Below are positions 49,403 through 64,000 of a stretch of 64,000 nt of DNA, in pieces. The stretch lies in contig JAFIGV010000030.1 in assembly GCA_017849575.1 (NCBI GenBank), forward strand, positions 1 to 64,000. Reading direction: 5' to 3'. Under the pieces are notes generated by a model. That model ran no database searches and was not told the origin of the DNA. It saw only the letters and a list, made by a program, of their open reading frames with translations. The translations under genes were made by a program, and so were the position numbers. Position 1 is the stretch's first letter. Every line of letters begins with the position of its first letter. Source of the DNA: Flavipsychrobacter sp. GTDB taxonomy: Bacteria > Bacteroidota > Bacteroidia > Chitinophagales > Chitinophagaceae.

Positions 49403-50528
49403 ACTACATATTGTTGCCTTCGATGTGCCTTTTCCGCCCGACTATGGTGGTGCGATCGATGTATTCTACAAAGTGAAAAAACTTTCGGAAGCGGGTGTGG
49501 ATATCTATCTGCATTGCCCTGTATATGGCGATCGGAAACCCGCTGCGGCTCTCGAAGCCCTCTGCAAGCAGGTTTGGTATTACCCACGCAGAACCGGTAT
49601 CCGCGGGCTCTCGCTCACGTGGCCCTACATGGTATATTCGCGAAAACATCCGGATCTGCTGCGCAATCTGCTGAAGGTGGATGCTCCGGTCTTTTTCGAT
49701 GGCCTGAGCACTACAGGCTTTTTGTCGGCACCGGCCTTGCAAGACCGGCTTAAAATTCTTCGTCCGCAAAATGTGGAACAGGATTATTACCGACAGCTCG
49801 CCAAACGAGAAAAACACCTGCTGAAAAGGATCTACTATGAATTGGAGGCGCTGTTGATCCGTCGGTATGAGTCCCGTCTTTCTGCAGCCAACGCCTTCTT
49901 TACCGTTGCGCAGCACGATCATGAGTTTTTCAAGAAGATGTATCCTGCGGCCGAGCATGAATACCTTCCTTCCTTTCAACCCTACGATGAAATAGCAACC
50001 CTGCAGGGAAACGGTGATTTTATCTTGTACCACGGCAATCTGGCGTTGGCCGAGAACCGTGAAGCAGCACTGTTTTTATTGCAAAAGGTATTCCCCTTTA
50101 TTGATTTTCCCTGTGTTGTTGCTGGCCGGCATCCTGATGAGGAATTGATAAAAATAGCCGGAGCGCTGCCGCATTGCCGCCTGGTTGCAAACCCCGGCAT
50201 GGAAGAAATGGAACAACTCATTGCAGGTGCACAGATACACGTTCTTCCTACTTTTCAAAACACGGGGCTGAAACTTAAATTGCTTCACGCTCTTTTCAAG
50301 GGAAGGCATATCGTTGTCAATCCGGAAATGGTACACGGCACGGGGCTGGAGGAAGCATGCAGGGTGTGTGAGCATGCCGACTCATTTATTGCAACCATAC
50401 AATCACTGGCCAGACTGCCAGTGAACAAAGACTTGCTGGAGAAAAGGAAGTCGGTGCTGATGCGGGATTATGACAACAGACGTAATGCCAACCGCATCGT
50501 TACATACCTGCGGCAGAAATCTCTCTGA
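49389..50528 (+). CDS. Glycosyltransferase, GT4-like
   Basis: A 379-aa protein with 'LHIVAFDVPFPPDYGGAIDVFYKVKKL' near the N-terminus and a donor-site block 'NTGLKLKLLHALFKGRHIVVNPEMV' in the C-terminal half. The likely start is TTG 49389 inside the upstream gene (MSTLKLHIV…); no ATG is available near the N-terminus. It forms an operon with the 48302 gene. Its 3' end overlaps the convergent ftsE-like gene by 29 bases. Acceptor and sugar unknown. Confidence 0.86.
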   Translation: MSTLKLHIVAFDVPFPPDYGGAIDVFYKVKKLSEAGVDIYLHCPVYGDRKPAAALEALCKQVWYYPRRTGIRGLSLTWPYMVYSRKHPDLLRNLLKVDAPVFFDGLSTTGFLSAPALQDRLKILRPQNVEQDYYRQLAKREKHLLKRIYYELEALLIRRYESRLSAANAFFTVAQHDHEFFKKMYPAAEHEYLPSFQPYDEIATLQGNGDFILYHGNLALAENREAALFLLQKVFPFIDFPCVVAGRHPDEELIKIAGALPHCRLVANPGMEEMEQLIAGAQIHVLPTFQNTGLKLKLLHALFKGRHIVVNPEMVHGTGLEEACRVCEHADSFIATIQSLARLPVNKDLLEKRKSVLMRDYDNRRNANRIVTYLRQKSL

Positions 50529-51189
50529 CACTCCCCTGTTCTATGCGCACCACTCGAGCCGGATATTTGTGAATGATACCATAGTCGTGTGTCGCCATGA
50601 TAAACGCTGTGTGATAATCGCGGCAAATGTTGAACAACAACTGCATGATCTCGTCTGTGGTATCGGGGTCAAGATTGCCGGTGGGCTCATCCGCCAGAAT
50701 CAGTTTGGGATTATTCAGTAACGCTCGTGCTATATCTACGCGTTGCTGTTCTCCGCCCGACATTTCATAAGGCATTTTAAATCCTTTATTTTTTAGCCCT
50801 ACCTTACTCAGCACGTTTTCGATCTTTTCCTTCATTAGTGCTCTGTCTTTCCATCCGGTGGCTTTCAGCACAAATTCGAGGTTGTCATAAATGTTCCTGT
50901 CCGTAAGCAATCTGAAATCCTGAAAAACGATTCCTAGATTTCTACGGAGCAGGGGCACGGTTTGCCACTTCAGTGTTTTGAGATCAAAGCCAGCCACCTG
51001 ACCTTCGCCTTGCTTTAGATAAATGTCTCCATAAAGTGTTTTCAGGAGGCTCGATTTTCCCGATCCGGTTTTACCGATCATATAGACAAACTCACCTTTC
51101 TGCACCTGAAAATTCACCTGGGAAAGGATTAGGGTCTTTCCTTGAAAGATATTTGCGTTCTGTAGGGATACTATGCTTCTATCGCTCAT
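50500..51189 (-). CDS. ftsE: FtsE-like ABC transporter ATPase
   Basis: A 229-aa ATP-binding subunit: Walker A G-K-T-G-S-G-K-S (residues 39-46), Q-loop 'IVFQDFRLL', signature '[19 protein letters not shown]', Walker B '[13 protein letters not shown]', and the H-loop '[11 protein letters not shown]'. The '[20 protein letters not shown]' stretch is typical of FtsE, which with FtsX controls septal peptidoglycan hydrolases at the inner membrane. No ftsX is adjacent; in Bacteroidota it is often elsewhere. A LolD/MacB-type ATPase is the alternative. The 3' end overlaps a glycosyltransferase gene by 29 bases. Confidence 0.85.
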
Positions 51190-54997: not shown

Positions 54998-55080
54998 TGC
55001 GGCGAATAAGCACCTTATTCACCGCATAATGTGCGGCAATAATGGAGTTTGCGGCAAATAACCGCTATATTTACCGCAAA
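54998..55080. promoter_or_regulatory. Cluster of TGCGGyrAATA palindromes, candidate operator of the Fic gene
   Basis: Two near-perfect inverted repeats: tgcggcgaataag (54998-55010) with cttattcaccgca (55014-55026), and tttgcggcaaata (55048-55060) with tatttaccgcaaa (55068-55080). A half-site tgcggcaataa lies between them at 55032-55042. A further half-site (ttgccgcatattat) lies just after the gene near 56215-56228. The cluster ends 16 bases before ATG 55096, the place expected for an operator; the Fic protein itself ends in a winged-helix-like domain. Confidence 0.65.
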
Positions 55081-55095
55081 CGCTGCGGAGAAAAC

Positions 55096-56211
55096 ATGGT
55101 TTACATACATCAACGTCCTGAATGGCCCAATTTCACTTGGAACGAAAAACTGTTGCTTCAGAGGCTTGTCCAGATAGGCAATAAGCAAGGCCGCCTCATT
55201 GGGCGAATGGAGGGATTGGGATTCTCATTGCAAAACGAAGCGACACTTTTGAACATGACTTCAGAAGTGATAAAGTCGAGTGAAATCGAAGGAGAGATAC
55301 TAGATCATGACCAGGTCAGATCATCAATCGCCAGACGACTTGGCATGGACATAGCTGGTTTAGTTCCATCAGACCGATCAGTTGATGGAGTCGTAGAAAT
55401 CATGATTGATGCGGTTCAGAACTATAAGGAGCCGTTGACCGAAGAGCGATTGTTTAATTGGCACGCAGCATTGTTTCCCACCGGGCGAAGCGGTATGCAA
55501 CGCATCGTAGTTGGAGGATGGCGCCTCAACGATCCAGAGAGCCCCATGCAAGTCGTATCGGGACCTATGGGAAAAGAAAAAGTACATTTCGAAGCGCCCT
55601 CCGCTGACCGACTGAAAGAAGAAATGAAACGATTTCTTGATTGGTTCAACGCTGAAGATGAACTACCTCCGGTATTAAAGGCTGGCATCGCACATTTTTG
55701 GTTTGTTACCATCCATCCATTTGATGACGGTAACGGAAGATTGACCCGCACCATAACAGACTTGCAACTGTCAAGAGCTGATGGAACAAACCAACGCTTC
55801 TACAGCATGTCAACACAAATAAGGCAGGACCGCAATTCTTATTATAGCATTTTAGAACAATCCCAGAAAGGCGAGCTTGACATTACAGCGTGGTTAGCGT
55901 GGTTTATGGACTGTCTGGAAAGGTCGTTGGATGCTGCAGATCAGATTTCTGGCATTGTGCTGAGAAAAGCGAAATACTGGGAATGGCTGTCGGCAAAAAA
56001 ATTGAACGACCGCCAGCAACGCATCATAAACAAGCTGCTTGATCAAGAGTTTTTTGGAAAGCTTACGTCCTCCAAATGGGCTAAAATGAACAAATGCTCA
56101 GCCGATACGGCACTCAGAGACATCAATGACTTAATAGCACAGGGAGTATTGGAGAAAGACGGCTCTGGCGGACGAAGCACAGGATACCACTTAATCGGTC
56201 AACACCGATAA
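55096..56211 (+). CDS. Fic-family protein (class II, N-terminal DUF4172-type) with C-terminal HTH
   Basis: A 371-aa Fic enzyme that would transfer AMP (or another nucleotide part) to a target protein. The catalytic motif HPFDDGNGRLTR is at residues 207-218. The autoinhibitory helix S-S-E-I-E-G (residues 61-66; pattern [S/T]xxxE[G/N]) lies N-terminal, making it class II. The C-terminal ~80 residues ('DRQQRIINKLLDQEF…', 'KCSADTALRDINDLIAQGVLEKD') form a winged-helix HTH. The frame is open to 55042 but palindromes cover that stretch, so ATG 55096 (MVYIHQRPEWPNFTW) is preferred. It probably self-inhibits and may regulate its own promoter. Confidence 0.9.
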   Translation: MVYIHQRPEWPNFTWNEKLLLQRLVQIGNKQGRLIGRMEGLGFSLQNEATLLNMTSEVIKSSEIEGEILDHDQVRSSIARRLGMDIAGLVPSDRSVDGVVEIMIDAVQNYKEPLTEERLFNWHAALFPTGRSGMQRIVVGGWRLNDPESPMQVVSGPMGKEKVHFEAPSADRLKEEMKRFLDWFNAEDELPPVLKAGIAHFWFVTIHPFDDGNGRLTRTITDLQLSRADGTNQRFYSMSTQIRQDRNSYYSILEQSQKGELDITAWLAWFMDCLERSLDAADQISGIVLRKAKYWEWLSAKKLNDRQQRIINKLLDQEFFGKLTSSKWAKMNKCSADTALRDINDLIAQGVLEKDGSGGRSTGYHLIGQHR

Positions 56212-56576: not shown

Positions 56577-57782
56577 ATGAGTTCAGTAAAGATCGTCCTT
56601 AGAAAAAACAAAACATCTGACGGCAAATATCCGCTTGTTATCCGAGTCACCAAAGATCGAAAGACCTCTTACATCGGGCTAGGTGTCCATGTGCGCGAAC
56701 AAGATTGGGACAAAGCGAATCAACGCGTAAAGAAGTCCCATGCGAATTCTAAACGGCTAAATAATCTGCTTATCCAGCGTTTGGCGGAAGCGACAGATAG
56801 CGCACTTGAATTGGAAGCAAATGCTCCGAATGTATCTGTAACCGCAGTGCGACAAAAAATAAAGCCGAGCGCCGGCAGCACAGTTTTTCCGCAGGCAGAC
56901 CTGTATCTTACCCGTTTAAAAGATGAAGGAAAGTTCAACCAATATTCGGCGAACAAATCACGCGTCAAACACCTGAAAACGTTCCTGAAAAATGATGTTA
57001 ACTTCTCTGAACTGACGATTGGTACGCTCGAACGATTTAAAGCACATCTCAAGTTTGCATACTCCATGTCAGAGAGGTCAGCAGTCAACCATCTTGTCTT
57101 GGTCCGTTCAATCTTCAGCCAGGCAATTAAGGATGGCGTGTGCGATCCAAAATATTACCCATTTGGTAAAGGCAAGCTCAAGATAAAGTTTCCGGATTCT
57201 GTAAAGGTTGGATTGACACTTGAAGAAGTTCAAAAGATCGAAGATGCTGAACTAAGCCACGAAGCAGATCATGCTCGAAATCTTTGGTTGATTTCTTTCT
57301 ATTTTGCAGGGATGAGAGTCTCTGATGTGTTCCGGTTGAAATGGTCGGATTTTTCGGATGGGCGGTTGAATTATAAAATGGGGAAAAACGAAAAAGCAGG
57401 ATCACTGAAAGTGCCTGCTAAAGCGCAGGTGATTCTAGATCATTATGAGAAATTCAAAGTAAATGCAAACGGCTTGGTGTTTCCCGAATTGCAGAAAACG
57501 GACTTAAGCAATAAGTTCGAGACACAACGATTGATAGCAGTAAAAACGAAAAATGTTGATGAATTACTGAAGAATCAGGTCGCTACAAAATGCGACATAC
57601 AGAAGAAGCTGACTATGCACATTGCTAGGCATACGTTTGCTCAGATTGCTGGCGACAGAATTCCCATTCAGTTGCTCCAAAAGCTTTATCGACATAGCAG
57701 TATTACTACGACAATGGGCTATCAATCAAACTTCACACATAAAGATACCGACAGTGCGCTTGAACTTGTAATTGGTAACTGA
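56577..57782 (+). CDS. Tyrosine recombinase (site-specific integrase)
   Basis: A 401-aa integrase. N-terminal ~90 residues form an Arm-DNA-bind_5-type domain ('LRKNKTSDGKYPLVIRVTKDRKTSYIGLG'), residues about 105-200 a SAM-like core-binding domain, and the C-terminal ~200 the catalytic domain. Catalytic residues are readable: R247 (FAGMRVSD), H348-x-x-R351 (HIARHTFA), H373 (LYRHSSI) and Y382 (TTMGYQ). It resembles integrases of Bacteroidota islands and conjugative elements. It is transcribed away from the tRNA-Leu fragment. ATG 56577. Confidence 0.92.
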   Translation: MSSVKIVLRKNKTSDGKYPLVIRVTKDRKTSYIGLGVHVREQDWDKANQRVKKSHANSKRLNNLLIQRLAEATDSALELEANAPNVSVTAVRQKIKPSAGSTVFPQADLYLTRLKDEGKFNQYSANKSRVKHLKTFLKNDVNFSELTIGTLERFKAHLKFAYSMSERSAVNHLVLVRSIFSQAIKDGVCDPKYYPFGKGKLKIKFPDSVKVGLTLEEVQKIEDAELSHEADHARNLWLISFYFAGMRVSDVFRLKWSDFSDGRLNYKMGKNEKAGSLKVPAKAQVILDHYEKFKVNANGLVFPELQKTDLSNKFETQRLIAVKTKNVDELLKNQVATKCDIQKKLTMHIARHTFAQIAGDRIPIQLLQKLYRHSSITTTMGYQSNFTHKDTDSALELVIGN

Positions 57783-60622: not shown

Positions 60623-61225
60623 TCAAGTGAGTCCGTTTTCCACCGCAAACAAGGCAAGACCAGTTCTAGTCTTTTTTCCAAGTTTTCGACAAAGTGCGTT
60701 TTTGAAATTTTCAGCACTCCTTATGCCGACTTTCATGATTGCCGCAATCTCCTTTATGGAGTACTCTGATGCACACAGTTGTAAGAAAGAAATTTCAGAT
60801 GGAGTAAGATTTGATTTAGGGGCATGGGCAAGATTATCAAAAATCTTTTCACCTTTGTAAATACTTAGAAGTGACTCATGTAATATTTCTGGATCAACTG
60901 TTTTGCTTAGGAAGCCGTCAACACGAATGGAAGAAGCATTTGCAGCAAGGAATTGTGTGTCGAACATAGAGAGAAACAAAATTTTCATGTACTTCCACCG
61001 CTTGATTATTTCTTCTGCGGTTTCGTAACCATTCATCGGCTTCATCCGAAGATCGAGAATACATATATCCGGTAGGAAGGTTGCCTCTGACAATTTCCTA
61101 ATCAACTCAGTTCCATCTGATGCATCAATAACCACCTTAAGGTCAGGGAAATCATTGAGCATAGAAATGAGACCTCCTCTGAATAATGTGTGGTCGTCAG
61201 CTACAGCTAGATAGACAGATGGCAT
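60623..61225 (-). CDS. Orphan NarL/FixJ-type response regulator
   Basis: A 200-aa two-domain regulator. Receiver domain (1-120): acidic pocket D10-D11, phosphoacceptor D58 (ICILDLRMKPMNG), S86 and K108 (FLSKTVD). The C-terminal LuxR-type HTH covers about 140-200 ('LTPSEISFLQLCASEYSIKEIAAIMKVGIRSAENFKNALCRKLGKKTRT'). It is transcribed away from the three-domain operon at 61366; no histidine kinase gene is nearby. A perfect 16-base palindrome lies in the shared 140-base intergenic space and may be its binding site. Confidence 0.9.
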   Translation of the reverse strand: MPSVYLAVADDHTLFRGGLISMLNDFPDLKVVIDASDGTELIRKLSEATFLPDICILDLRMKPMNGYETAEEIIKRWKYMKILFLSMFDTQFLAANASSIRVDGFLSKTVDPEILHESLLSIYKGEKIFDNLAHAPKSNLTPSEISFLQLCASEYSIKEIAAIMKVGIRSAENFKNALCRKLGKKTRTGLALFAVENGLT

Positions 61226-61365: not shown

Positions 61366-61755
61366 ATGTGTTGCATAAACAGTTCTTTAACATCAAAACT
61401 CGGCAGCGGAATAGTGGACACAGCCAACTCCTTTTTAGATGGTAGTGGTGTTTTGGTCCCAGTATTCACTTCGGGTGCAAATGGCTCCGTAATAAAGTCA
61501 ATAACAGTTAAGGCTACAGGAAGTACGAGCCAGGGTATGGTGCGATTATTCGTTGGGAACGGCGAACTTAATTTCCTGTATCGAGAAATTATGATACCTG
61601 CAAACGTCCAAACCGGAGTTGTACCAGCATTTTCTCTGGTATTACCTGGCATCTTCCGGCTTCAACCAGGCTGGAGTTTGCTTGCATCGACTGAACTTAG
61701 CGAGACATTCAATGTTTTTGCAGATTATGGCGAGTGGGAAAATTGTTCATGCTAA
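61366..61755 (+). CDS. Single-copy version of a beta-rich domain ending in C-x-C
   Basis: A 129-aa protein with no signal peptide (MCCINSSLTSKLGSGIVDTANSFLDGSG…). It holds one ~110-residue domain with landmarks D-T-A-N, D-G-S-G, 'KATGSTSQGMVRLFVGN', 'REIMIPANVQTGVVPAF', 'LLASTELSETFNVFADYG' and a final N-C-S-C. The same domain occurs twice in the next gene. The pattern recalls small structural beta domains seen in phage-related hypothetical proteins, but I cannot name a family. It is the first gene downstream of the palindrome and divergent from the response regulator. Confidence 0.7.
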   Translation: MCCINSSLTSKLGSGIVDTANSFLDGSGVLVPVFTSGANGSVIKSITVKATGSTSQGMVRLFVGNGELNFLYREIMIPANVQTGVVPAFSLVLPGIFRLQPGWSLLASTELSETFNVFADYGEWENCSC

Positions 61756-61770
61756 CTTAAACAATGTTAT

Positions 61771-62586
61771 ATGTGTACCAAACTAATATCGTATGCCAAA
61801 ACAGGGATTGCTCAAGTAGATACAGCAAATCCCAACTTAAATGGAACCGGAAGCGTAGTTACCGTCCTCACAGGAACTAATAAAGGAACGAGCATCTCGT
61901 CAATATTCATAAAAGCCATCGAGAACACGACCGAAGGAATGGTAAGGCTTTTCGTATTCAACGCATCTACAGGATATACGATGCTTTTTCGTGAAATCTA
62001 CATTCCAGCTACTACCACGACAGCTGTTGAGAAAGCATTTGAAACAACTGTTCTTGGAGAGTTAACTTTATCCAATGGAGATATTCTTTATGCCTCAACC
62101 CAGAATTCGGAAAAGTTCAATGTTGTAGCTAATGGTGTCGCTTTTGACTACTGTCCATGCGGGTCTTCGGACTCGGTTTGTTGTTCTGACACGCAAGCGG
62201 AAGCCTTAATTGGAGCCGTACGAATCTCAGAAGGAAATGAGTTTTTGGATGGAAGCGGTACAACCTATGTTGTGATATCCGTGCCGCCTACATACGATGG
62301 AGGGATTGAAATAACGAATGTCGCCATCAAATCGATTCAGTCAACAAGCCAAGGCATGGTAAGGCTGTTTATTCAAAACGGGGCTGGGATATTTTTGATA
62401 AAGGAGTGCGAAGTTAATGCTCAGGTTCAAACGAGTGTTGAACCTGCATTCAGGTCCGTAGTATCGTTAAACATTCGGTTAGAACCCAACTGCCTTTTAT
62501 TGGCGTCAACACAATACCCTGAAAGTTTCAACGTAATAGTTGACGGAATTGGCTTGGCTAATTGCCCTTGCCCTGAAGTCGGTTAA
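61771..62586 (+). CDS. Two-copy version of the same beta-rich C-x-C domain
   Basis: A 271-aa protein with two copies of the domain in the 129-aa neighbour. Copy 1 (about 8-130): 'DTANPNLNGTGS', 'ENTTEGMVRLFVFN', 'FREIYIPATTTTAVEKAF', 'LYASTQNSEKFNVVANG', then Y-C-P-C. Copy 2 (about 145-268): 'EFLDGSGT', 'QSTSQGMVRLFIQN', 'AQVQTSVEPAF', 'LLASTQYPESFNVIVDG', then N-C-P-C. The two copies are joined by a Cys-rich linker (SVCCSDT). No signal peptide. It starts 16 bases after the first gene, clearly in one operon. It is followed after 34 bases by the 100-aa Gly-rich gene. Confidence 0.72.
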   Translation: MCTKLISYAKTGIAQVDTANPNLNGTGSVVTVLTGTNKGTSISSIFIKAIENTTEGMVRLFVFNASTGYTMLFREIYIPATTTTAVEKAFETTVLGELTLSNGDILYASTQNSEKFNVVANGVAFDYCPCGSSDSVCCSDTQAEALIGAVRISEGNEFLDGSGTTYVVISVPPTYDGGIEITNVAIKSIQSTSQGMVRLFIQNGAGIFLIKECEVNAQVQTSVEPAFRSVVSLNIRLEPNCLLLASTQYPESFNVIVDGIGLANCPCPEVG

Positions 62587-62619
62587 AATTCCATATTTGT
62601 TTACACCTAAATATTTTAT

Positions 62620-62922
62620 ATGAAGTTTGAAGAAGTTAATATGCAGAAGTTTCAATTGGATTTTGTGTGGGGCGCTGAAAATCCTACCGATGCAAGAGAT
62701 GCTGAATCACATTTTAACCCTGCAATAAGACCAACGGGACCAGGCGGCGGGAATCCCGGCATACCTCTGGGAAAATTCGTAGTGGTTTATGGCGATCAAA
62801 AATGGGGCTCTGATGGCGGTTCAGGTAATCCTTGTTACACAGGAGTGTATGGACATGATTCCTTCTTAGGAATACGATTAAATGCTGACCATTTGGTGCG
62901 AACCGACATGGGAAGAGATTAG
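62620..62922 (+). CDS. Small Gly-rich protein, candidate RiPP precursor
   Basis: A 100-aa protein: an amphipathic N-terminus (MKFEEVNMQKFQLDFVWGAE) that looks leader-like, then a Gly/Pro-rich centre (PTGPGGGNPGIPLG) and a C-terminal part rich in Asp, Gly, Ser and Lys. It lies immediately before the CarboxypepD_reg gene and two genes before an ATP-grasp gene whose N-terminus resembles grasp-with-spasm maturases. Position and composition suggest a peptide to be modified (inference); no known precursor motif is visible. An alternative start is ATG 62641. It could equally be an unrelated small protein. Confidence 0.5.
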   Translation: MKFEEVNMQKFQLDFVWGAENPTDARDAESHFNPAIRPTGPGGGNPGIPLGKFVVVYGDQKWGSDGGSGNPCYTGVYGHDSFLGIRLNADHLVRTDMGRD

Positions 62923-62941
62923 TTTTTATCTTGTCAAAGCG

Positions 62942-63838
62942 ATGAGATGGATAATATTTTTTCTGCAATTAGTCTTTGTACCTTGCTTATCAGCACAAAC
63001 AGTTCATTTTTACGGAAAAGTACTTGATGACAAAGGGGCAGGTATTCCCTTTGCAACGGTAGGCATAAAAGATAAGAATCAGGGTGTCTACTGCGATGAA
63101 CTTGGAAATTTTTCCTTTAGCGCACCTCTTGATTCAATAAAGGGAATTGTCTTTCATTGCGTAGGCTACAAGGAAAAAGTCGTAGAAGTTTCATCGAAAC
63201 CTACTGATCCGATCATCGTTAAGCTTGAAAGGAATGAGGTAATACTTGGTGGAGTACTTGTCAAAGGGGAAAAGAATGCGAAATACCGGGTGGGATATTT
63301 AGGAAAGAAGACAAAACACTACGGAGACTGTTATTACCGATCCGGGGACGAAATTGCTATTTTTTTACCACCTCAAAATCGAAACAAAGGTTTTGTAAAA
63401 GAAGTCTACGTCTATATTACCAACGAGGGCATCTTCACCAATAAATTTAGAGTGCATATCTATGAAATTGATACGACAAGGAATTCGCCAGGGAGAGACA
63501 TTTCTGACGGAAACATCATCGTTGCCGCCATCAAGGGTAATGAATGGGTAAAAGTGGACGTAAGTGAAAAGAATATTCCTGTCGGTCAAGGAGTTTTCGT
63601 TTCTATGGAATGGATCTCCGGGTATGGAAACAACATATCGCTTTTGCAATCTAAAAAGAACCCAGTGGTTGAAAAATACCATAGCCCCGTGTTGGGACTA
63701 AGCAAAACACACATTGTGAGGCTAGATATATTTTGGAGAGACGTGTTTAAGGACGATTGGCACCAACAAGTGGGGACTTTCGGAAATTTTGGTTTAGTAC
63801 CCATGATTTACGGAACCTATACATACAAGAGGAAATGA
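62942..63838 (+). CDS. Secreted CarboxypepD_reg-like domain protein
   Basis: A 298-aa protein with a signal peptide (MRWIIFFLQLVFVPCLSA-Q). Residues about 22-95 form a CarboxypepD_reg-like (TonB N-terminal-type) beta-sandwich: 'FYGKVLDDKGAGIPFATVGIKDKNQGVYCDELGNFSF'. The rest (~200 aa) is a beta-rich extracellular-looking region with no catalytic motif that I recognise. The frame is open to 62882 but the signal peptide fixes ATG 62942, 20 bases after the small gene. Its stop overlaps the ATP-grasp start (ATGA), so the two are coupled. Confidence 0.8.
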   Translation: MRWIIFFLQLVFVPCLSAQTVHFYGKVLDDKGAGIPFATVGIKDKNQGVYCDELGNFSFSAPLDSIKGIVFHCVGYKEKVVEVSSKPTDPIIVKLERNEVILGGVLVKGEKNAKYRVGYLGKKTKHYGDCYYRSGDEIAIFLPPQNRNKGFVKEVYVYITNEGIFTNKFRVHIYEIDTTRNSPGRDISDGNIIVAAIKGNEWVKVDVSEKNIPVGQGVFVSMEWISGYGNNISLLQSKKNPVVEKYHSPVLGLSKTHIVRLDIFWRDVFKDDWHQQVGTFGNFGLVPMIYGTYTYKRK

Positions 63839-64000
63839 TTCTTTTGTTAAGCTCGCATCTCGAAAGCTCAACAGATAAAATTGAAGATTGGCTATGCTAT
63901 TATGGTCACAAGTACCTAAGATTGAATACTACGTCTTTGATTCCTAATATCGTCAGTATTAATCTGAGGAACAGTTTATTTTATTTGCAAGACGGGACTA
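63835..64000 (+). CDS. N-terminus of ATP-grasp peptide maturase (grasp-with-spasm type), partial
   Basis: The gene begins at ATG 63835, overlapping the stop of the previous gene (ATGA), and runs off the window; only 55 residues are visible. They read M-I-L-L-L-S-S, then 'STDKIEDWLCYYGHKYLRLN' and '…IVSINLRNSLFYLQDG'. The arrangement MIL-x-S-x(n)-ST-x(3)-x-WL-x-Y-x-G-x(3)-R-I/L-N is what I know from the N-terminus of GwsG, the ATP-grasp ligase of grasp-with-spasm RiPP systems, which makes ester or amide cross-links in precursor peptides. The ATP-grasp core is outside the window, so this is a recognition by N-terminus only. Confidence 0.55.
   Translation, partial: MILLLSSHLESSTDKIEDWLCYYGHKYLRLNTTSLIPNIVSINLRNSLFYLQDGT

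Follow-up and report, generated by a model that had tools for sequence, protein, structure and literature searches.

A question is raised by the right edge of the 64,000-nucleotide stretch of DNA analysed here (the window), which covers positions 1 to 64,000 of contig JAFIGV010000030.1 in the Flavipsychrobacter sp. assembly GCA_017849575.1: which peptide system begins there, and what do the genes at its head do in it? An earlier note on the window had guessed that its last 166 bases open the gene for the ATP-grasp maturase of a grasp-with-spasm (Gws) system, a graspetide type of ribosomally synthesised and post-translationally modified peptide (RiPP) system. Because the contig (160,385 bases, in a genome of 3.6 Mb) continues past the window, the cut-off gene could be read to its end. 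Named relatives of the window's genes belong to Bacteroidota. We found a Gws-type operon led by two genes for proteins of phage-virion jelly-roll type, and genes of the same family recurred beside clusters of three RiPP chemistries. We consider it rather probable that an integrative element here carries a regulated RiPP operon of the graspetide type and that this operon is functionally tied to a phage-derived jelly-roll module.

Operon structure and the jelly-roll genes

The operon comprises seven genes in the same direction, B129, C271, D100, E298, GwsG, the gene of a 65-aa protein, and GwsS, with intergenic gaps of 15, 33, 19, -4, -26, and -4 nt, respectively, and ends at contig position 66081. 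With a maximum gap of 33 nt, the idea that the locus is a single unit was borne out. All the features that the earlier note had listed were confirmed in the sequence. The open reading frame (ORF) in the last 166 bases (63835-64000) shares an ATGA overlap with the preceding gene (62942-63838), and the product of the latter has a hydrophobic N-terminus and does contain the CarboxypepD_reg domain (CarbopepD_reg_2) that had been ascribed to it.

An alignment indicated that B129 and both halves of C271 are three copies of one domain family of about 125 aa, each ending in C-x-C (Cys 127/129 in B129; Cys 128/130 and 265/267 in C271). The earlier note had described a three-copy C-x-C domain family; the three copies and their C-x-C ends stood, whereas C-x-C as a defining motif of the family was rejected, since only some aligned members have it. 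The note had also overlooked that these genes encode a phage-virion-type jelly-roll common to several RiPP classes. All the jelly-rolls in the window and in loci L093, L141, and L044 terminate in C-x-C, and five of the seven proteins carry Cys at position 2; hence, a bridged assembly is possible.

AlphaFold2 predicted B129 to be an eight-strand sandwich of the jelly-roll type (predicted local distance difference test, pLDDT, 90.2) and C271 to consist of jelly-rolls (pLDDT 88.6, predicted template modelling score 0.86). The top match of B129 among solved structures was the KHP40 cement protein (Z 10.6, root-mean-square deviation (rmsd) 3.1, 111 of 124 residues aligned), followed by the KHP30 cement protein (Z 9.9, rmsd 3.8, 116 aligned), which was tied with plant HDT domains at 9.2. 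The top match of C271 was 7dou_4 (Z 10.6, rmsd 4.5, 115 aligned), and the nearest predicted viral protein to B129 had a template modelling score of 0.92 and 41% identity. By alignment, B129 was 25-38% identical to 12 single-domain proteins from viral contigs. A profile-guided scan of viral contigs found the family in 46 loci, some of them near-identical. Ten neighbouring proteins were hand-picked from eight of these 46 loci, and seven matched a tail or virion PHROG, two had no match, and one matched a family of unknown function; tail or virion PHROGs were thereby matched at six of the eight loci, one weakly. In phage Pam2 (L103), the jelly-roll gene adjoins an annotated tail fibre; some gene annotations near that tail fibre look implausible for a phage, so that the depositor's names need care. 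Taken together, homology and predicted fold mark B129 and C271 as phage-virion-type jelly-roll proteins.

No RiPP enzyme was matched beside the jelly-roll gene at the 46 viral loci, and no plasmid relatives of C271, no PDB sequence relatives of the family, and no recognisable capsid or tail genes within the operon were found. A role of the jelly-roll genes in anti-phage defence was rejected, as PADLOC gave no match for 10 proteins of the region. By a crude measure, the N-terminal hydropathy of 13 jelly-roll proteins was 0.31-1.59, compared with 2.57 and 1.92 for two secreted-type controls.

Recurrence of the jelly-roll genes beside RiPP enzymes

Members of the family occurred in 15 of 394 genomes from the same taxonomic family, 3 of 396 in a sample of the order, and 1 of 395 in a sample of the phylum, the window's genome being counted in each. 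Of the 26 distinct sites in genomes, 25 were read (G403:C212, at a contig edge, was left out) and 21 were assessable, as L094 and L143 lie at contig ends and L145 and L147 hold gene fragments. Loci found twice were counted once (L093/L140, L100/L041, L101/L138, and L102/L042). A RiPP enzyme lay within 2.3 kb of the jelly-roll gene at 13 of the 21 assessable Bacteroidota loci, or at 12 of 20 when the window, the starting point, is set aside; these 12 all came from searches with the jelly-roll family. Six loci carried GwsG and GwsS (the window, L093, L097, L099, L137, and L139), six carried LanB and LanC of class I lanthipeptide clusters (L044, L095, L096, L098, L141, and L146), and one was linked to a radical-SAM enzyme (L138; PF04055, 3.2e-19). 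RiPP clusters are rare in the background: GwsS was matched 33 times in 244 genomes, and 119 genomes held 15 LanB loci. Chance adjacency is accordingly estimated at well under 1% per site. Three partial GwsS matches among the 33 (G006:C140, G286:C24, and G141:C24) were not taken in. Among the clusters collected by enzyme search and examined, the 44 other than the window and L044 had no jelly-roll genes. A narrow check of the literature found no paper on jelly-roll proteins associated with RiPP clusters, and none of the 18 common neighbour families of ATP-grasp loci is described as a jelly-roll-type protein in the available text of PMC8939145.

Two further gene types were seen at these loci. Small XRE-type helix-turn-helix genes, alike by eye, directly precede the jelly-roll genes at L044:5996-6238, L093:6854-7117, and L138:3820-4083. 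In three genomes, members of one family of 877-1095 aa proteins come after both the jelly-roll gene and a small protein that contains Cys (L041:7648-10281, L043:7294-10410, and L136:6347-9634); when two of them were scanned, one gave no Pfam match and the other a weak PD40 match.

Exchange of the module between chemistries

A tree was built from 25 double jelly-roll proteins. C271 was sister to the protein of the lanthipeptide locus L141 in it (support 97/93), and the protein of L093, a Gws locus, joined them next (100/98). On this tree, the Gws label required seven changes, at least four of them forced by well-supported branches, and all of 500 shuffles needed as few; accordingly, it is not clustered. 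The lanthipeptide label required four changes, a count at least as low as which was reached by 40 of 500 shuffles, and is thus clustered to some degree. Furthermore, the six jelly-roll-linked GwsG proteins did not form one clade (approximately unbiased test, p 0.034). The two trees show that the jelly-roll module and the RiPP chemistry have been recombined.

Maturation-side proteins

Read to its end, the protein that opens in the last 166 bases gave its best match, out of 15 families, to TIGR04192 (E 6.5e-59, 199.8 bits) over the full model (1-318 of 318). Its PDB relatives were AMdnB (1.5e-30), CdnC (6.9e-21), and two further ATP-grasp ligases (5ig8 and 5ig9), which agrees with the ATP-grasp maturase that the earlier note had guessed. 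Lys161, Glu209, Arg211, Asp275, Glu288, and Asn290 were invariant across nine aligned GwsG proteins; from general knowledge of ATP-grasp enzymes, we take these residues to be catalytic. The SPASM partner that the note had sought lies downstream of GwsG, as a nearly full-length match to TIGR04193 (E 4.6e-25, 88.8 bits). This GwsS retains C286, C289, C295, and C315, and F208, Y232, D248, and N298 stand at four other conserved Cys positions; it is the sole such protein among 13 aligned, as if one of the two metal clusters had been lost. The radical-SAM motif CX3CX2C was present in none of nine GwsS proteins examined.

Between the two enzymes, the 65-aa protein sits where the LPL family protein stands in the clusters described in the available text of PMC8939145. 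Several of its counterparts in other genomes have a FYKPIS-like C-terminal end. At L137, this slot between GwsG and GwsS is taken by a 375-aa protein (L137:9643-10770; PF16227, DUF4886, 27.1 bits with a cut-off of 26.7). E298 has an N-terminal hydropathy of 2.57 and occupies the slot of the secreted protein in other clusters.

The candidate precursor D100

On position alone, D100 is probably the graspetide precursor and would then be the substrate: it directly precedes E298-GwsG, which is the precursor place of related clusters. Membership of D100 in a known family was rejected, as NCBIfam, Pfam, and PHROG gave no match up to E 1 and no homologues were found in phages, plasmids, or viral contigs. 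The motif WG[SD], which D100 carries as WGSD in its C-terminal half, occurred in four of the six jelly-roll-linked Gws precursors (D100 and those of L093, L137, and L097) and in 6 of the 636 small ORFs across all loci, an enrichment reached by none of 20,000 composition shuffles; the motif was chosen after inspection, and the 636 may include some of the precursors.

The one match to D100 in 119 genomes was a frame in G081 (L034:4135-4332, minus strand; E 0.006 per genome). It exceeded 500 of 500 shuffles, a result that is tempered by its being the best of 119 genomes, and it is antisense to an ORF on the plus strand with a tandem look-alike of its own; the match is probably due to chance. No maturase was seen on the 12-kb contig of L034. 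If real, this marginal match does not lie close to a maturase.

A shared start in the sister branch

Where the jelly-roll protein belongs to a sister branch of the tree, the gene after it often begins with L-N-S-x-x-D. When searched as [LM][NH]S..D within the first 18 residues of 1897 different ORFs (125 loci of at least 6 kb), the pattern was present in seven (at L042, L043, L134, L136, L137, L142, and L145), and each of the seven was the first substantial gene to follow a jelly-roll gene. Such a gene follows at five of the eight assessable loci that have no known RiPP enzyme, or at six with L144, which was judged by eye. The pattern had been derived by eye from earlier cases, including L144 (its ORF taken from a further-upstream start); L145 was not used in deriving it and is an independent confirmation. 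The proteins, of 87 to 395 aa, are mutually dissimilar, and one is the Gws precursor of L137. D100 holds only a loose relative of this start, ENPTDARDA.

Distribution of the C39 exporter

A C39 exporter was found in none of the 13 jelly-roll RiPP clusters and in 17 of 44 controls (pooled Fisher p 0.006), namely 13 of 30 Gws clusters (two of the genes partial) and 4 of 14 lanthipeptide clusters. The window and L044 were counted among the 13 and are not among the 44; the Gws controls exclude L034 and also L031-L033, which have no GwsS or are microviridin-like. Full-length exporter queries matched short or distant ABC-type ORFs at L099, L137, and window positions 50500-51189 (corrected for a numbering offset); peptidase-domain queries, which retested the ORFs of L099 and L137, matched neither. 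As a firm claim, replacement of the exporter was weakened, because 17 of the 30 Gws controls and 10 of the 14 lanthipeptide controls also have no nearby C39 gene.

Locus and mobile element

The operon is located on an integrative mobile element (Table 1), as the earlier note had held: it is flanked by a tyrosine integrase on one side and by genes for a TrwC relaxase and a TraG-type coupling protein on the other, and the GC content of the operon is 0.40, compared with 0.476 for window positions 1-50000. The response regulator reported to diverge from the operon was likewise confirmed on the minus strand. A response regulator is also divergent from the jelly-roll genes in L137 and L141. About 10 kb downstream, a probable histidine kinase and a response regulator were recognised by sequence only (L002:15638-17255, contig 75637-77254); the orphan regulator could have its missing partner in this kinase. 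Two Fic-family proteins were also noted, one left of the integrase (window 55042-56211) and one about 40 kb to the right of it (L045:17011-18198).

Table 1 Features of the operon and its surroundings (window positions unless stated otherwise).
Feature	Position	Strand	Basis
Tyrosine recombinase (integrase), left of the operon	56577..57782	+	PF17293, PF13102, PF00589
NarL/LuxR-type response regulator, divergent from the operon	60623..61225	-	PF00072 6.7e-19, PF00196 9.2e-6
B129, single jelly-roll, MCC... start, CSC end	61366..61755	+	Homology, AlphaFold2 fold
C271, double jelly-roll, same family as B129	61771..62586	+	Homology, AlphaFold2 fold, tree
D100, probable graspetide precursor, 100 aa	62620..62922	+	Position before E298-GwsG
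E298, N-terminal hydrophobic segment and CarboxypepD_reg-like domain	62942..63838	+	PF13715 1.9e-12
GwsG, graspetide ATP-grasp ligase	63835..64000 in window, to contig 64809	+	TIGR04192 6.5e-59
65-aa protein in LPL position	contig 64784-64981	+	Position between GwsG and GwsS
GwsS, SPASM protein	contig 64978-66081	+	TIGR04193 4.6e-25
Second, receiver-only regulator, flanking the operon on the far side	L002:6178-6558	-	
TraG-type coupling protein	starts contig 78491		
TrwC relaxase	contig 81361-84096		

Discussion

The recurrence of jelly-roll genes beside RiPP clusters suggests an undescribed partner for such peptides, and we favour a functional tie between the graspetide-type operon and its jelly-roll module. 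Several points weigh against it. Both enzymes score under the curated NCBI cut-offs (199.8 vs 230 bits for GwsG and 88.8 vs 175 for GwsS), and for this reason we term them variants and not equivalogs. Of eight C-terminal Cys residues shared by 12 or more of the 13 aligned GwsS proteins, four are missing from the window GwsS, so that the SPASM step may be lost. D100 has no GG leader of the usual kind; the precursor proposed in the earlier note kept its position but gained no confirmed homologue. Its likeness to the precursors of L093 and L044 is weak, as the scores were reached by 19 and 5 of 500 shuffles, respectively, out of 16 comparisons. Neither D100 nor the lanthipeptide precursors clearly show the L-N-S-x-x-D start. 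Eight of the 21 assessable jelly-roll loci have no recognised RiPP enzyme, and of the clusters found by enzyme search only the window (of 31 Gws) and L044 (of 15 lanthipeptide) contain jelly-roll genes. The GwsG tree is poorly resolved, with 2 of 16 inner branches well supported. Finally, the absence of C39 is only suggestive, because the controls are not independent (two genomes, G307 and G153, contributed 11 of the 30 Gws clusters) and because the flanks at some jelly-roll loci are short on one side (L098, 408 nt; L096, 1600 nt; L044, 1764 nt); with Gws clusters alone (0 of 6 vs 13 of 30), the difference is not significant (p 0.068).

If the operon works as proposed, the response regulator would switch it on, and GwsG would introduce ester or amide rings into the C-terminal half of D100, with the reduced SPASM protein and the protein in the LPL position as helpers. 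The jelly-roll proteins may act on the peptide. B129 and C271 would assemble into an oligomer or fibre, possibly cross-bridged via the N-terminal Cys and the C-terminal C-x-C, that might hold or present the finished peptide in place of the usual route by GG leader and C39 export, and E298 would work at the envelope. This carrier step is, by itself, a tentative proposal. On a similarly speculative footing, Bacteroidota might have domesticated a phage virion jelly-roll into a general carrier, often built from a single jelly-roll protein and one or two double ones. Such a carrier would load, protect, and deliver the modified peptides of unrelated RiPP chemistries as well as the L-N-S-x-x-D proteins of the sister branch, and would so replace dedicated ABC export. 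One single and one double jelly-roll make three, the number of a cement trimer; this is an idea, nothing more.

Other roles for the jelly-roll proteins would also account for parts of the data. They might serve self-protection or storage: being soluble, they would keep the mature peptide sequestered in the cytoplasm of the producer, with no exporter needed until lysis. The low N-terminal hydropathy of the 13 proteins by the crude measure, the 13 clusters without a C39 exporter, and the presence of the module with several peptide chemistries all fit such a role. Immunity proteins usually track one peptide type, whereas one jelly-roll lineage serves both graspetide and lanthipeptide clusters; as the top fold match is moreover a virion surface protein, we regard storage as unlikely. 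Just as improbable, in our view, is a mobile or regulatory gene set of phage origin that travels with a response regulator and lands upstream of various operons, so that the jelly-roll genes would be neighbours with no functional tie to the peptide. Their patchy distribution (15 of the 394 family genomes, the window's included), the eight loci without a RiPP enzyme, and the recurrence of response regulators both with and without RiPP genes are in line with that view. RiPP enzymes within 2.3 kb at 12 of 20 loci besides the window are, however, far above what their rarity would lead one to expect, the jelly-roll genes and D100 stand in the window operon with gaps of 15-33 nt, and five of the eight other loci (six with L144) share the L-N-S-x-x-D start in the next gene.

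The least probable of these explanations is an ordinary divergent Gws cluster whose exporter lies elsewhere in the genome and whose jelly-roll genes encode a surface adhesin. The 17 Gws controls that likewise have no nearby C39 exporter would allow for this, and the precursors of this branch are very diverse according to the available text of PMC8939145. Adhesins need export, yet no signal-peptide-like N-terminus was seen in the jelly-roll proteins, and the same module also occurs with LanB/LanC and radical-SAM clusters.

RiPP clusters are usually read as a precursor, enzymes, a protease, and an exporter. If the functional tie that we favour is true, a phage-type structural protein that moves among graspetide, lanthipeptide, and radical-SAM clusters would be an undescribed common component of them, and it could help to account for those Bacteroidota clusters that function with no exporter close by. 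The jelly-roll family also provides a sequence handle for locating such clusters.

Comparison with known systems

The Ena pilins of Bacillus endospore appendages are jelly rolls in which an N-terminal Cys-Cys and further Cys residues bridge the subunits (Cys10/11 to Cys109/24), and B129 resembles them in Cys arrangement by position only, as far as the available text of PMC8619143 describes it. Identity with an Ena-type pilin was not supported: the fold score (Z 7.2-8.0) was at background level, no PDB sequence match was obtained, and Cys residues are few or absent in several relatives. The predicted jelly-roll fold of B129 is more akin to the KHP40 and KHP30 cement (decoration) proteins (Z 10.6 and 9.9). 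Phage proteins encoded near tail genes are comparable by sequence, as the window jelly-rolls are homologous to the single-domain proteins of viral contigs; unlike these, the Bacteroidota gene is often doubled and stands beside RiPP enzymes, and the window operon has no recognised capsid or tail gene.

Among class I lanthipeptide clusters, L141 has the same pair of jelly-roll genes and the same divergent regulator as the window, whereas no LanB or LanC match was obtained in 20 kb around the window operon. The closest likeness in gene order is to the Gws clusters. Those of branch 5 comprise a precursor, a secreted protein, an ATP-grasp enzyme, an LPL protein, and a SPASM protein in the available text of PMC8939145. 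Our relatives show the order precursor, secreted protein, GwsG, small protein, and GwsS, often with a C39 exporter nearby. The window operon follows the same order. It differs from these clusters in that no GG leader and no nearby C39 exporter were found and the SPASM protein is reduced; furthermore, it has a CarboxypepD_reg protein in place of a TPR-like one and two phage-type jelly-roll genes in front.

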